Assembly (NCBI GenBank): GCA_000827495.1
Contig: KN817595.1
Location: 62,001 to 126,000, forward strand
Direction of reading: 5' to 3'
Source of the DNA: Hypholoma sublateritium FD-334 SS-4
Lineage: Eukaryota; Basidiomycota; Agaricomycetes; Agaricales; Strophariaceae
Length of the DNA: 64,000 nucleotides
The translations under genes and the position numbers were made by a program. Below, in pieces: positions 55,879 to 64,000 of this stretch. The notes beneath the pieces were generated by a model. It was not told where the DNA came from. It saw only the letters and a list, made by a program, of their open reading frames with translations, and did no database searches. The stretch's first letter is position 1. Each line of letters begins with the position of its first letter.

Positions 55879-57554
55879 TGAGGACGGCGGAGATGTTCTC
55901 GGATGACGGCTGCTTGCGCGGTGTCCACAGACATCTGGGTCGGGGTCATCATATAGGATAGCTGTGAAAATGAATCATATCGTAAGATAAAGACGCTCGG
56001 TAGAATTTTGCAAACTACGCACGAATAATCGCAGATCGCGGGATTGCTGGTGTCGGACAAGTGTCAGACGCAGCTCTCCCGGTAGTCTCGGCGGCCGTAT
56101 TCCGCATTGTCTAAGTCGCTGTCGTAGAACCAGCATCGATTGTTGGCGGCGAATGGTTTGGCGACGAATAGTTTGGCGACGAATAGTTTGGCGACGAATG
56201 GGTTGTCTGAGTGTGCATTGGAGAGCGAGAACGATGGATTGAGTGGGCGTCGTCGACTCGAAGGATGCCGTCAAAGACGTTCATGGGCCATGACATAGAC
56301 TGACAGGCAGCGCCGGCATTATCAGTGCATCGGAGGGGTGTATGGAGATGCTGATGAGTGTCTACAGGATGAAGTTAGCATCGGACACACTACAGATAAG
56401 ATCGAGTTGACCTTAACCTTACCTCTGCGTTACTGTTGGATAGGCGTTACGAATTTGCGAACCGCGTTTCGCAAATCGGTCACAGTGCGAACCAGGGTCC
56501 AGAGGGTTCACAGAGAACTTAGAAGAGGATTCAAGTTCTTCGCTATGTACACAAGCAAACGGCCCGGGAAAAGTAAAGTAAACAAGACAACGCGAACGCG
56601 ACGATCACGTGCAATATTTTCGCGTTATTCTCTGAGACTCATCAATGATGACTCTCCCTCAAACCTCCCGTCCAACCCGCGCCGTCCCCTCGTCCCCACT
56701 CAACAAATCTTCGTTGGGCTCTTTATTAGTATGCCCCACATCTTGTCAAACGCTGAGCAGGCTCTGCTGTTTGAATATCTCAACCAAGACCCGTGGCTGC
56801 CTATCGATATCCTCGAGTTACGAAATCGCCTACAGTTTTCCATGCAACGTGACGGTCAATTGTCAGATAGCGTCAATGATAGCATGCTCGATACTCAACA
56901 GGGACTCGGATGGACGCGTTCTCAGGCAAGTATATTCTCATCTTCAGCACAAACTAATTGATATCTGACTTGCCAATAATCTTTCTACAGGACTCGGAGA
57001 ACGCATCCGGCGAATTTTGGCCAAGGCCAACGGAATTCTCCTTCCACCGGGAGTCAATGTCTTCTGAAGATGGGACTCTGCCCATATCTTTACCACATAA
57101 CGTGTGTGATTTCTTTGTTGTAGCTCATTATTCTCGCTAACCTTTGTGGTGAATAGAGCGTCTCAGATGCTTTCCGTGTCATCCGCCATGCAATCAGCAG
57201 CGGCTCGGACCAAAGTCGCAACAAATTCAATACTGGGTTGGCGAGTACTAGGTCAAGCTTTTCACCAGAAAGCTTGGAGCCCCAGCCTGCTCCTGAATCC
57301 ACCATCTCAATGAACACTAATACCTGCGGTAAGAGTTCTATCTCTCAAAATGTATACATGTACTTATTCTTTCATAGATGCATTGCAATGCCCAAGTGAC
57401 AACACTGCTTTGTTACTGTTGCCGCCACAGCAAGGGCGCCAAACCGCAAGGCGACGAGGGAAGAAATCATCGCGTGGCGCTAAGGGCGCAACCATAGCTG
57501 TAGTATTTATATATCAAACCCTGGAAGTTGCCAAAGTAACTTGTTATATCCACA
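55879..57554. other. Low-information region with open frames but no recognised gene
   Basis: A plus-strand frame around 56520-56930 (from MYTSKRPGKSK through MPHILSNAEQALLFEYLNQDPW) may splice at about 56923 into a second piece at 56992-57108 (DSENASGEFWPRP). I recognise no domain. It may be a short hypothetical gene or another broken one. A 15-nt minisatellite lies at 56142-56203. Confidence 0.25.
56142..56203. repeat. 15-nt minisatellite, about four copies
   Basis: The unit TTTGGCGACGAATAG repeats with small changes (first copy GGCGGCGAATGG). Read on the minus strand it gives a SSPNY-type repeat (five residues per unit). Confidence 0.85.
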
Positions 57555-57588
57555 TGGGCAGCTGCCCAATGCCTTGGGCAGCTGCCCA
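57555..57588. repeat. Two tandem 14-nt perfect palindromes
   Basis: TGGGCAGCTGCCCA occurs at 57555-57568 and again at 57575-57588 with 6 nt between. Each copy is its own reverse complement, so the block can fold or bind a dimeric protein. It sits about 260 nt beyond the 3' end of the KDZ transposase gene. Confidence 0.85.
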
Positions 57589-57844
57589 GCACCTGATTTT
57601 GAAGGCCACTGGGTTTATGTACATGTTTTGATTGCTTGAAATTGAGGAATTGCCCACCTCGTATGCCAAAAACATTTATTTTACAATTAAATAATGCTAT
57701 GTTGCATGGCATGCAAAGATGCCGCAATGCCGCAATGCCGTGTAAAGAAGATATTTTTAATTTGTTTCAAAAATACACTACAAGATGGTCGGCGATTTCG
57801 GATAAACCACACAAAACAAAAAAACCTCAACCTGAGCCTATATA

Positions 57845-60800
57845 TCAGGCATCTGGACCAGGCAGGTCTTCGTCGTCTTCGCCGTCTTCGTTATCCAGCT
57901 GGTTAGCAGGGGGCTCAATGGCCTCCTCATCAATCAGGCCCTCCACCTCATCAAGAGGGGTTTTCCACAAAATCTTGAAGGAGGCTGATAACAGCCTCTG
58001 TAGCTTCGCCTGCTCGACGGCATATCCATAAATGCCCTCCCGTAGCTCCGCACCTACATTGACCCTGCCAACCCGCCTCAAATCCCACTGCTTCGCCTTC
58101 CATTTGAGGAATTCGAGGACACGGCGCATCTCCTCCAGAACGAGCAAAACCTCCTCCGTTGCTCGGCGCACTCGGGCCCTGCTCCGTGCCCACTCTGCTC
58201 GAAGAATGTCGTCATTTTCATTGCCATCCGAGAGGGGCAGGGTCCGCCAGATCCACGACAGCTCCTTTCGCGTCTCCCCCGTGCCCTTCTTCCTCTTCCT
58301 CTTGCTTCGAACCGGACCGCCCTCAGTGCTGTCGTTAAGGTCTGGATCAGATTCCGTCTCCTCTTCAAGAATGCCTGCCGGTTCTTCCTCGTGTGGGGCA
58401 TGTCCGTCCTCCCAGATGCCCTTACGGAGCCGCTTCGCCTTCTTGATTCCACTAGCAAAGCCTCGGACGTCCTCATTTCGCAGCTCCTGGTACACACCCT
58501 CCCAGGCGCCGGGACCCTCGAGGCGCAGCTTGGCCCTCCTTGCAGCGCGATACTTCTGCACATAACGAATCGCCCGACTATGTACACGATCGATGATGGC
58601 TCTCGATCGCGTACCCTCCCGTTGGCCACGGATGTTCTTATTCTTGAAATACACCATCCGCGTCTTCACGCGGAGCGTTCGCCGAAGTCCGTCGAGGCTA
58701 TTTTCGCACTGTGCGGTGCGGAATTTGAGCTCCATCTCGGGCAAGCCCTCTGCGCATGCAGCTCGGCGACGATTTGAGGGAATCGCAGACGGCAGCCACA
58801 GCTCAACGTCCTCGGGGTTTGGATTGGAGTTCCACAGGGCGGTGGGGTTAAGTCCGCAATCTGTCTGAATTTGTAGAACTCCAGGCATGTACACAAGTCG
58901 TACGGCCTCCCAGTTTTGAATTTTTTCTTGTAGCATCTTGCGTTGATCTCGAAGGGCGGTCGTCTGTAGGGATTTGGGTATGCCCTCCTGTTCAGCCGCA
59001 AATACCTTCAGGACGCGCCTACCAACAAATGAGCACCATCAAGGAGTTGTGGAGAGAGACAGCTGCTTACTGAGCCTCCTCGAGCTCCAAGCCCATTGCC
59101 AGAAACGACGTGGCAGACGTGCTGTGCAGCGACACCCTTTTCGCCTGCTTTGCAGACGCTGCCTCCTCCCTGCTGAGCTGCGCCTCAAGGTCGGCCTCCG
59201 ATATACCTGCAGGCGCGTGAGTTCTAACAGGCAGTGATGAGTTTAAATGCCCCAACACACCGGCCTCAGCTGTCTTGAATGGGTTTGGGGCAGCTTTCGG
59301 GAAGCCGTCTACATCCCACGTGGCGCACAAAAGCTCCCAGGACCTAACTAGATCCAAAGGAAGGGTGGACGAGAACCCTCGATGGGCCTCAACCTGCAGG
59401 TTCCTATCAGAGACGGCGTTCTTGAATCGCCTTATGAGAGCTTTTCCTGTTTGATGGTAAGGGGTTTGAAGTTGAGCACAGCTCAGGAAATTAATAAATT
59501 GGCTGAAGACGTACCCATAGATGAATACTTGAGCCAGTTCCAATGCCCAAAGTTGTCATCCAGCACATCCTCCCGCGTTCCGGGACCCATGGTTCGCGTC
59601 GAGCCGGCAAGCGGGTTGTGCGACCCCCAAACCCGCTCTGGGCATTCGCCGTCCGATAGCCCGACGCCCTCGGCCAGGTTGAACGAATATTGCTCATGAC
59701 CCTTTTCCAAGTGGGCTGGTTCGTGGAATTTTGGGATTAAGGGGCGTAGGTTCAGGCCGGCTCGCGGACGAAGCTCCTTGGGCCACTGCAGCATGCGGGA
59801 GAATATGTTGATGAACCACTGACAGGCTATGTCGTAGCTGATGGCGACCAGCATGAGTTGCGTCGATTTGATGGCCGAGGCGAATGTATAGTCCATGTTC
59901 GCGTACCTGCAATACGCTATGAGGGAGTCAATTGACCGCGGAACTCGAACGCACCGTTCGCCCCTCTGAAGATTGCCTACGGAATTCGGGAGAACCATCT
60001 CGCTTCTCCCGCACATTGCCCCACTGACGCCCGTGTACCTGAGCCCCCGCGTATTCTGAGTGGTGGCCTTCGCCAGGGCCTGGAAGCCCACACAGGTACT
60101 GATCTGCGGGAGTTATGCAGCCGTTAGCATCCCATAGGTCCGAATACACGGATGACCCACATCCTCTGCATCCGCTTGGCTCAACACGTATTCCTCGTAA
60201 GGCGCACGCGGCACCATGTAGGCCATTCCATTCCAGAGCCCTGGATCCACGGAAAAGTTGGATACCAGGTGGTTCTTGAGTCGGAAATTGGCGTCCATGC
60301 ATATAAGAAGCGCATAAAGAAACCTAGGGCAGTTAGCTGTGAGGGGGTGGGCTTGGATAGTTGGCAAAAAACACACTGCCTCTCCTTGGGCTCGCGCGCC
60401 CAGTCGTCCGGGAGATTAATCCCAGGATGGGGGCAAGAGGGGCACATTATTGCCAGCTCTCCGTTTGAAGTCCCGTCGGCTCCGCTCGCGTCATGACCCC
60501 GCCCCCCACGCTTTAGGGCCTTTAAATGGCGCCACTGCGTAAAGCATCGCATGGTTGGTCGATATCTGGATCGAGGCATGCGGATGCCGGTGTTGTTTGT
60601 TAGGCGCTCTATGGACCTGTACATGTCGTAAGTAGACACCTTCCCCATGAGCGAAAGGAGGTGAAAGAGCCGGAGAAGCGGGAAGGTTACGCAGGTTCGA
60701 ATTTTATGGCGGCTTGCGGGATATAGCCCTCGACGGAGAAGCTGCAGATCGCGGGGGATTTCGCGGTAGCAGGCGCAGTATCCGAGCATAACCTCGTGGA

Positions 60801-61619
60801 CGCCGGTGGTGTGGATAATGAGGAGGCGTTCATCGCAGGCAGCGGGGGTCGGGCACTTCATGCTGGCATGGTTGAGATGCACAACAAGGCCAACCTCTCT
60901 CAGCGTCGTTTTCGAGAACGATGCCCCATCCCAATGCTACATGGAGACATTAAAATGCAGAACGTTCCAAGAGCATGGTGGACCTACCTCCACAGAATGG
61001 AACGGATTGAGACGATGCCTCCGTATGAAGCAAGTTCGGCAGGTCAGATCAGGGAGAAAGCAGTCCCGACATCTGAACTCTGGCCTTCCAGACGCCCTGC
61101 CACCCCTTGAAAGACAGTCAGGGCATTCGACGTCGTTGATGAAATCGCCGCGGCCCTCGTGTCTGAGAATCTCGTCGAGGTACAAATCCCGAGAATTATT
61201 GAGCCAATGCACATGGGGTCTAGCCTTTCAACAGCTGAGAAAAGTGCAGGCATAACAAAGAAGGCACATACCGAGGCCTCACTGCGCTTTTTCTTCCCCT
61301 TAGCCATCATCACCTTCTCCATCACATCACCAACGTCCGCCTCCAAGACTTCGTCGTACCACCCGTCGTCCGGATCGAGCGAATATTCCAGGTCATCGTC
61401 CGGGGCCCAGCTGTTGCCAAACGTCCAAGTCAAAGGGAGTATTGAGGTCGCCGTTTCAATCGGCATGTTGTTGGGCCCTGATGACACAGTGCGAGCTTTG
61501 AGCACCTCGTAGTCGTCTTCCAGTGGTATCCGATCATGGTATGAACCCCCAGTGCTCTTGGCTGCGCTACGATGAGGGCCTGCGGTGGTTCTTGCGCGTT
61601 TGTAAGGTCGGGTAGACAT
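57845..61619 (-). CDS. KDZ transposase with CxC2-type cysteine clusters
   Basis: ATG at 61619; exon 1 61272-61619, exon 2 60988-61224, more exons to the stop at 57845 (end LPGPDA). Exon 1 is a disordered basic/acidic region. Exon 2 gives HWLNNSRDLYLDEILRHEGRGD then VECPDCL and RCRDCFLPDLTCRTC, the cysteine clusters that accompany KDZ transposases. The core follows: HLNHASMKCPTPAACDERLLII and GVHEVMLGYCAC; MDANFRLKNHLV (catalytic-region MDANF); ISYDIACQWFINI; FHEPAHLEKGHEQYSF; the GECPERVWGSHNPLAGSTRTMGPG block. The C-terminal 360 codons (57845-58936) include WNSNPNPEDVELWLPSAIP, a charged coiled stretch and an acidic end. I saw no stop or frame break in the parts I joined; a few splice sites remain unchecked. 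It would excise and insert the element in the nucleus. Confidence 0.85.
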
Positions 61620-62086
61620 TTCCCGAGGTGTGCGGCGTGCGCACTGCGAGTGTGAACTTAGCATTAACCGCTTGCTGCTGATTTCACGCGCCGCGCGCGA
61701 TGTGCACGTGATTGCGCGTAAGCAATCAACAAACGTATAGCACGTTACGGTCCGACGCGTTCAAACTTCAAACCGGCTCCCTCACGCTTGACCTCCTCGC
61801 CATCCACCTACGCATGCCTCCGCCGACTCGAGCGACCCAAATTCAAGTGAGTTCTATTTTATCAGGCTGGCCGGTGCATAACACCTCGCACACTTGGCGC
61901 ACCGGGAGTTTAAGGCTGCGTGCGCTGGCCCCGCCTGTTTATCTCGATTCCTGCAGCTAGCTGATGCTGCGCTCTGAAGATTTACCTACGCACACCCATC
62001 GCGCCCCGTCAAACCTTTGCACAGGTAAGTGTATCCCCCACCTTCATGCACTCGCATTCCCGTGACGCACCCTTCAAGCTATAGAC
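61620..62086. promoter_or_regulatory. Divergent promoter region between KDZ transposase and TET/JBP
   Basis: 467 nt between the two outward-facing start codons. It is rich in CpG (GCGCGCC, ACGCGTTC at 61755), as expected for a target of cytosine methylation, and contains the only space available for both promoters. No TATA box stands out. Confidence 0.5.
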
Positions 62087-63794
62087 ATGCACCTCGACTT
62101 CGAGCGGTATGTGGCCACCGACAACACGTACAGCATTGCGGATGCCATCTGGGAAAGCATCGAATATGAATACGACCACGCACACCTTGATTCCGCCCCC
62201 GTTGAACCGCTCACCCCCCCCACCGCCGAGGAAGAAATTGAACTCCAACGGGCGTACGATGCGTTCTATGGAACGTCGCCGTTGAACTCTCCATCCCCAT
62301 CCCCGTCGTCCTCTCGCCCCTCCTCGCCCGATCCTGCTGCACGGGAGCGAGAGCTCGACAAATCATTCGGATCATCCCCGCTCAGCTCGGTCCCCCCATC
62401 TCCTGCTGCATCGAGCTCCCCCCTACCCAACGCGGGGGCCCACTCGAAGCCCGCTGAGCGTTCGGTCGCCGCCCCACGCGCTTCCTCAACCTCCTCTCCC
62501 CCCAACGCGGCGATTCACTCGAAGTCCGTAGGGGCCGGCCTCAGCAGCAAGGCGCTCCAAAGGAAGAAAAACTCCCATAAGAACCGCCGGCATAGGCGCC
62601 AAACGGAGCGCTCCAAGGCCGACAAGAACGCCTCGCCCCATCCCAACGGCCAGAAGCACATTGCGCAAGCGGAGGCCACGCCGACCGCATACGACACGAG
62701 CAGCATTCCCTCGGCCTCCAGCGGGTTCATTGCGCTTCCGGATCGCGGCCCGAGAGTGTGTCCTGGGGCGGAGGAGCTGCTCAAGGATCCGCGCTTCCGG
62801 TATATCAGATGGCGGGGGAGGTCCGTGCATTCCTGAACCGCCCGCTGCGCCCTCACTGACGCCCCGCCTCCGGCCAGAATTACGCAGGCCATCGTCGATA
62901 GGGATGGTCGCGTCATTGCCGTTTTGGCCGGCCATCCGAACGATGTAGATTGGGGCACCGTACAGCGCACCGCCCACTCCGCCATTCTATCGGCGAAAAC
63001 GCGGACCAGGTTTATGAAGAAGGCCACGAGGCATCGACGGGGGGACTACCCCGCTGCTGCCGTCGGGATCTCATTTGGAGGAGGGCAAAAGGTATGCGCA
63101 GCTTTCACCCCGTTGACCCAACTCAGCCAACTTCAATCAGTCCCCTGGCAACCTCAGGCATGAAGAACGCAACGCGGCAGAGCTAAACGGGCTGCTGAAG
63201 CACGACTCCATTCGGAGAATCGCAGGCTTCGCCTCCAGCGCCTTCCTGTCTTGGGCCCCTAGGCTGCATGGGCACTTTGCTGAGAACCTCGATGGCCTCC
63301 TCAAGACCCACCCCTCCCTTCGGCGCAACTTTCCCAACAGCGTCTGGGCCGCCGCGACGTTCAACTTCGGCCCACAAGTTGTAACGAAGAAACACAGGGA
63401 CTTCGCCAACCTCCCGTATGGCTGGTGCGCGGTGACTGCCTTGGGAGACTTTGACCCCACCGAAGGCGGCCACCTGGTACTCTGGGACCTCGGGCTCGTC
63501 ATCGAGTTCCCGCCGGGATCGACCATCCTCCTTCCATCAGCTGCCATTTCGCACTCGAATACGCCGATATCCCGCACGGAAAGCAGGAGTTCATTCGCGC
63601 AGTATAGCGCAGGCGGGCTGTTTCGTTGGGCCGCGCACGGCTTCCAGAAGGACTCGCAGTTTTTTCAAGGCAAGTCAGCTGAGGAGAGGGAGATCATTTC
63701 CGAGGGGAATGCTGCCCGGTGCAAACTAGGTCTGTCCCTCTTCTCCACCCTCAGGGAGCTGAGGGCAGCAGCGGGGTCGTCGTTAAGTAGGTAG
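62087..63794 (+). CDS. TET/JBP-family 2-oxoglutarate/Fe(II) dioxygenase (fungal 5-methylcytosine oxidase type)
   Basis: Three exons: 62087-62820, 62878-63091 and 63141-63794, giving 533 residues. Homologous fungal enzymes oxidise 5-methylcytosine in DNA to 5-hydroxymethyl-, formyl- and carboxylcytosine (shown for a Coprinopsis TET). The first ~200 residues are disordered with Ser/Pro runs and a lysine-rich patch (KKNSHKNRRHRRQ) suited to DNA or nuclear binding. The mid part has AVGISFGGGQK-SPGNL, the family's substrate-loop region. The double-stranded beta-helix holds the iron ligands H401-x-D403 (KKHRD) and H454 (AISHSN), the 2-oxoglutarate arginine R478 (FRWAAHG), and the signature WCAVTALGDFDP..GGHLVLWDL. 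No stop or shift breaks it. Intron 2 was set by phase with acceptor AATCAG at 63140. Confidence 0.9.
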
Positions 63795-63866
63795 ACCTGT
63801 GTACCCCATCTAGCAATGAAATAGAGTACCTTGCTGCGAAGATTCTTGAACCTGCTGTAAATGCTG

Positions 63867-63940
63867 CTCGCGATAACAAGAAGCAACGCATATTTACTCG
63901 CTGGAAACGCCACTCGCGATAACAAGAAGCAGCATATTTA
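63867..63940. repeat. Direct repeat pair near the right edge
   Basis: CTCGCGATAACAAGAAGCA followed by (A)CGCATATTTA occurs at 63867-63896 and, with a 2-nt deletion, at 63913-63940. It lies 70 nt downstream of the TET/JBP stop and could be a subterminal transposase-binding array. Confidence 0.75.
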
Positions 63941-64000
63941 ATATGTTCTTTTGCATGTATTACACATCTACATACATTACCCTAGTATTCCAAATGTCAC

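Follow-up and report, generated by a model that had tools for sequence, protein, structure and literature searches.

In the abstract of a 2014 PNAS article, Iyer et al. reportedly linked KDZ elements to TET/JBP genes and placed a divergent HMG protein within them. The 64-kb stretch of the Hypholoma sublateritium FD-334 SS-4 genome analysed here (the window; bases 62001-126000 of contig C78, in an assembly of 46.1 Mb and 281 contigs) holds a transposon with the same KDZ-TET/JBP linkage, for which complete boundaries and target-site duplications can be given. The closest described systems are the TET-bearing Kyakuja elements of Agaricomycetes, which generate 7-bp duplications, and the association of KDZ with TET/JBP that the initial annotation of this locus gave as known biology is already in print; in the available text of that work, escape from silencing is proposed for the transposon-borne TET as an inference (Kojima 2025, PMC12730594). 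For Laccaria and Coprinopsis, Licyte et al. (2022, PMC8889193) report that 5-hydroxymethylcytosine and 5-formylcytosine show enrichment at transposable elements and at TET genes, and that expression was detectable for only 4 of the 46 TET genes in Laccaria.

By its 7-bp duplication and CA..TG ends, the C78 element is nearest to Kyakuja, and as far as the available text goes it shares with the TET-bearing members a KDZ transposase, an internal TET/JBP gene, the 7-bp duplication, the 5'-CA..TG-3' ends and an Agaricomycete host. It differs in that no inverted repeats are reported there for the two Laccaria families, whereas the C78 termini pair over 72 of 100 positions, and in having an HMG-like gene, which goes unmentioned in that text (PMC12730594). 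We regard the C78 element as belonging to a known kind, of which it is a confirmed example now known to far greater extent; its TET is unmatched to the AG or PE types in the published material available. Its termini and two of its genes are the following, in window numbering unless a contig is named:

57489-72365 (C78:119489-134365): whole element, 14,877 bp, with 57489-64000 inside the window and 8.4 kb beyond it
57482-57488 and 72366-72372 (the latter C78:134366-134372, beyond the window): left and right copies of the target-site duplication AAGGGCG, 7/7 match
57489-57588, plus strand: left terminus and inverted repeat, 5'-CAACCATAGCTG
72266-72365, beyond the window: right terminus
57845-61619, minus strand: KDZ transposase gene with CxC2 domain, seven-exon splice-aware model, 1148 amino acids, stop-free
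61620-62086: shared upstream region between the two start codons, 467 nt, CpG observed/expected ratio (o/e) 1.24
62087-62824, 62888-63091 and 63141-63794, plus strand: three exons of the TET/JBP-type dioxygenase gene, 531 amino acids, stop-free

The element runs from 5'-CA to TG-3', with AAGGGCG recurring directly after the TG at 72364-72365, and TGAAGGGCG has a single occurrence in the 75.5 kb examined. The terminal inverted repeat of about 100 bp pairs at 11 of the 20 outermost positions and at 61 of the next 80, and in the control only one of 32,265 positions reaches 72/100, which fits a nested copy at 69839-69938. A search with the left flank showed that the roughly 100 bp at 57489-57588 recur at many places in the genome; when left ends are aligned in register, all 13 start with CAAC and their outer flanks look unrelated by eye. 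The right end as a lone query finds eight places besides its own, five of which stop exactly at its last base. At C177 and C192, where this search has no match, possible right ends with one mismatch each were rejected for that reason. A second full-length element of 13,153 bp lies on contig C135 (left end 32264, right end C135:45416) and is flanked by AGAGCCT on both sides (7/7). Together with a non-autonomous relative nested in the C78 element, this makes three insertions with a 7-bp target duplication, each matching 7/7, in contrast to the 8-bp duplication of Zisupton. KDZ and TET both lie within each of the full-length elements (14,877 and 13,153 bp), and because termini and perfect 7-bp duplications surround it at C78 and C135 alike, the TET gene is inside the transposon, which bears out the initial annotation's proposal of a transposon carrying its own TET. 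The span of 57555-63940 given there is less than half of the true extent: the position 57555 is a palindrome within the left terminus and 63940 falls within a repeat array. The further genes, the termini and the target duplication did not feature in that annotation, and most of them lie beyond the window.

Pfam scores in the minus-strand frames are above cut-off for both KDZ (PF18758, 157.9 bits against 26.6) and CxC2 (PF18803, 123.7 bits against 27), the combination of PF18758 with a CxC cysteine cluster by which KDZ transposons are defined. The gene models are built on splice signals and homology rather than on RNA, and they uphold the head-to-head arrangement of the KDZ and TET/JBP genes about a 467-nt shared region as well as their intact appearance, with 1148 and 531 codons free of stops and frameshifts. 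A stop in KDZ that was reported by the unspliced genome search is intronic in the model. Five choices of the first intron preserve the frame, which leaves that intron uncertain.

Exons 2-3 of the TET gene correspond approximately to NCBI record HYPSUDRAFT_145652 (partial, 292 amino acids). For the Tet_JBP family (PF12851) the score of 21.2 bits falls short of the 34.9-bit cut-off, and among the 66 members of the alignment 15 match this family at E up to 0.01; the name TET therefore rests on the fold and on the conserved HxD..H..R residues. The predicted model has a mean confidence (predicted local distance difference test, pLDDT) of 95 and the double-stranded beta-helix fold of TET; an earlier AlphaFold model from a seven-row alignment reached 47.5 and was discarded. 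In structure comparison the Z scores of CcTet, NgTET1 and TET2 exceed those of FTO, AlkB and prolyl hydroxylases by 4 to 8 units, while CMD1 (12.2) is level with FTO (12.0). The Fe(II)-binding HxD..H and the 2-oxoglutarate-binding R correspond to H85, D87, H138 and R149, which are invariant in 7/7 rows and take their roles by analogy with CcTet, using the residue assignments in the available part of PMC11040006; H160 and D162 of HxD are invariant columns in the 66-row alignment. The enzyme would be expected to oxidise 5-methylcytosine (5mC).

The active-site pocket sets this protein apart from CcTet of Coprinopsis cinerea (7vpn, 7w5p, 8jkk) at two residues. Placed by spacing from HxD rather than by structural alignment, an Asn at H+5 and a Cys at H+11 are invariant in the TET and 65 aligned homologues (66 rows), where CcTet has Gly331 and Asp337. 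This suggests a 5mC enzyme that is nearer human TET2 here than CcTet, which acts on 5mC and N6-methyladenine (6mA). The Kyakuja TETs, in the available text, belong to the AG type: they are near relatives of CcTet in which Asp occupies position 337 and either Gly or Ser position 331 (PMC12730594); the C78 TET has Cys and Asn instead and lies outside that type, and the HxD invariant in 66 rows separates it from the PE type, in which HxE replaces HxD. No sequence match between CcTet and the TET was found at E up to 10, either with the single protein or with the seven-row profile. A search with PF20515 matched at C106 and C103 only and not at the C78 TET, and tblastn against plasmid records, which has little bearing here, gave no match. 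The genome does hold CcTet-like genes, L070 (C121:43484-43918) and L071 (C263:14293-14700), both unlinked to KDZ matches; the one on C121 matches CcTet at E 4e-21, and no KDZ match lies closer to it than 60 kb. A limited literature search, comparing the AG and PE types as far as the sources are available, found no published counterpart for the class of the C78 TET.

Linkage of the genes extends well beyond the two full-length elements. The TET protein has matches at 37 places in the genome, ten of which, the query included, are at least 62% identical and are here called TET-A. KDZ stands head to head with TET at nine of the ten (C78, C192, C135, C41, C177, C260, C137, C269 and C276), where counts of KDZ matches are lower bounds; the match at C276 is an N-terminal piece only, and C22 is the TET-A locus that lacks one. 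An HMG-like match follows in the same order at the same nine loci, about 11 kb off at C41, such that KDZ, TET and HMG-like genes occur together at eight loci besides C78. A further 21 full-domain TET matches are distant (38-51%), with a KDZ match within 7 kb at three of them, and the remaining six of the 37 are partial. Intergenic distances correlate between KDZ and TET over seven loci (r 0.65; 72 of 5040 permutations), between KDZ and HMG-like (r 0.97, 6/720, at six loci; 0.60, 6/120, at five) and between TET and HMG-like (r 0.76, 7/720, at six loci; 0.57, 9/120, at five). In Gymnopilus dilepis, homologues of TET (CVT26_009393) and of the HMG-like gene (CVT26_009392) bear consecutive locus tags. 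At three loci, C12, C16 and C103, KDZ and HMG-like genes are matched but the C78 TET query is not, and a TET of another class may be present there.

Two other arrangements were seen in the same survey. At C143:33187-40480, C173:21306-27943 and C84:6510-13624, the loci of the three distant TET matches near KDZ, the two genes converge 5-7 kb apart, perhaps as a second arrangement. At C12:314-320 kb, C16:452-459 kb and C103:132-139 kb, KDZ and HMG-like matches lie about 6 kb apart, and another gene could take the place of TET.

To the right of the TET gene the element carries the following further features:

63867-65415 (63867-64000 in the window), plus strand: motif array, 11 copies, with up to 5 mismatches, of CTCGCGATAACAAGAAGCA
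66845-67354, minus strand: small acidic gene X, with similar frames at C135 and C192
68033-68350 and 68404-68801, plus strand: exons of the HMG-like gene, with a further frame at 70039-71697; 14 matching loci including itself
69048-69938 (C78:131048-131938), minus strand: nested non-autonomous relative with related ends, 891 bp, inside the HMG-like gene and flanked by CATGCTG (7/7)

The array takes up some 1.5 kb downstream of TET and carries copies of a 19-bp motif with two CpGs, tandem repeats of 97 bp and 94 bp following further right. Allowing up to two mismatches, the motif occurs at 17 places genome-wide, all in the sense listed (one place for a reversed control pattern): nine at the C78 element, five at C192 on the downstream side of TET, and single ones at C14, C41 and C103. 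Among the five loci run for tandem repeats downstream of TET, arrays were found at C78, C135 and C192, only short ones at C177 and none at C137. An assignment of the array as a subterminal repeat was dropped, as it sits mid-element. Pieces of the HMG-like gene match none of the HMG families in Pfam. In the Gymnopilus dilepis HMG-like protein (P0145), helix-turn-helix domains stand mid-protein, perhaps from another transposon.

Evidence on selection comes from one pair of relatives, C269 and C276, which are 92-94% identical over 5.3 kb. TET exon 3 differs at 27 synonymous and 3 nonsynonymous positions and by one stop codon, with two of the three nonsynonymous changes preceding the first exon-aligned residue. 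HMG-like exon 2 has 16 synonymous and 5 nonsynonymous differences, TET exons 1-2 with the intervening intron counted in have 19 and 12, and the stretch between TET and HMG-like differs by 8.4%. The synonymous rate may be inflated by CpG mutability, and at the other loci the synonymous divergence from C78 is saturated or above 1.5. Within this pair, the substitution pattern shows strong purifying selection on TET.

The age of the C78 insertion is informed by its surroundings. When the flanks are joined at a single target site, the frame left of 57488 stays open and in register beyond the element; a Tet_JBP-like frame (20 bits) lies about 2.3 kb to the right of the element, within 72373-75138, and has 11 genome matches including itself, one of them 93% identical at C241. 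In our reading, the interrupted frame and the Tet_JBP-like frame would be one gene split by the element. Intact frames, perfect duplications and the open frame across the insertion argue against great age. A 6.4-kb query finds 41 places including its own, with 64-74% identity for matches of at least 100 bp and 78-89% for those under 90 bp. Related loci often show damage, C192 lacking the middle of the transposase, C269 carrying a TGA in TET and C137 seeming to have an element end within its KDZ gene. Within a related element the assembly is gapped, so that young copies could be missing from it, and copy counts are lower bounds. No other copy exceeds about 74% identity over a stretch longer than 86 bp, and recent activity, which the initial annotation had suggested for this copy, is unproven.

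We consider it probable that the locus is a complete KDZ-class transposon with transposase, TET, acidic and HMG-like proteins, whose TET counters CpG methylation. The element sits in an open frame beside a dioxygenase domain; the transposase would bind the inverted repeats of about 100 bp and move the whole unit, and TET would oxidise 5mC, perhaps with the HMG-like protein as DNA-binding partner, so that transcription of the element, or of its family, could continue in the face of CpG methylation. More tentatively, KDZ elements of Agaricomycetes may have acquired another TET class, distinct from the CcTet-like AG one, with a TET2-like Asn in place of CcTet Gly331 that should favour 5mC over 6mA; this TET together with the HMG-like partner and the CpG-motif array would form a sequence-directed anti-silencing module travelling with the transposon. 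The element has a CpG o/e of 0.94 and window bases 1-56000 one of 1.08, as opposed to 0.18 both in the nested relative (7 CpGs in 891 bp) and in a relative at C173, and the first 100 bp of the 13 left ends hold 0-1 CpG each. The non-autonomous relatives and the ends therefore look as if long methylated, and the element body does not. Several findings weigh against the reading held probable above. The KDZ of the three loci without a TET match has CpG o/e of 0.965 (C12), 0.986 (C16) and 0.923 (C103), and that of eight TET-bearing loci is alike (0.869-0.992); C31, C261 and C278, near contig ends (0.965, 0.901 and 0.965), were left out of this comparison. In the C269/C276 pair transitions are in excess at CpG (116 of 983, against 150 of 2011 at other C/G positions). 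Without C269 the KDZ-TET distance correlation falls to r 0.35 (89/720), much of it being due to that locus; the HMG identity is suggestive and not significant, a seven-row profile searched against PDB matching solely the HMG boxes of WDHD1 (E 0.13) and SSRP1 (E 9.5); and no close second copy was found in the assembly, the best being about 74% DNA identity over any stretch longer than 86 bp. Six KDZ matches of other families range from 0.69 to 1.16 in CpG o/e over 351-708 bp. Because the three loci without a TET match keep as much CpG, retention in the element body is no proof of TET protection; CpG content as a footprint of it was tested and gave no support, neither at those loci nor in the transitions, and the initial annotation's idea of an element that escapes silencing by oxidising methylated cytosines on its own DNA keeps its standing as an inference.

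A TET that serves some end other than protection from silencing in cis, for example by tagging the target or donor DNA of the transposase or through genome-wide action in trans, would also suit the CpG content, which does not set apart the KDZ loci that have a TET match from those that lack one. Oxidised cytosines cover retrotransposons too in Coprinopsis and Laccaria, according to the available text of Kojima (2025, PMC12730594), and 37 places with a TET match in one genome could act in trans, but a purely trans function has no need of the KDZ linkage seen at nine of ten TET-A loci; we hold this reading to be rather unlikely. An old, immobile relic, its genes open by chance or its TET kept by a host function, would account for the damage at C192 (transposase), C137 (KDZ) and C269 (TET stop) and for the lack of any other copy that exceeds 74% over a considerable length, yet the perfect duplication, the 1148 and 531 codons without a stop and the frame open across the joined target site speak against it, and it appears improbable. 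That the TET is a host gene lying beside the transposase by chance draws on the distant TET relatives, most of which are away from KDZ (3 of 21 within 7 kb, a lower bound for KDZ), and is in effect refuted by C135: with TET within termini and duplications at two loci and linked at nine of ten TET-A, its probability is close to nil.

The probable anti-silencing transposon at C78 has exact boundaries, an intact gene set and a TET whose catalytic half has a confident predicted model. One 46-Mb genome holds related KDZ loci, some that have a TET match and some that lack one, along with CpG-poor non-autonomous relatives sharing the ends of the C78 element, and so offers a compact system for telling protection in cis from action in trans.

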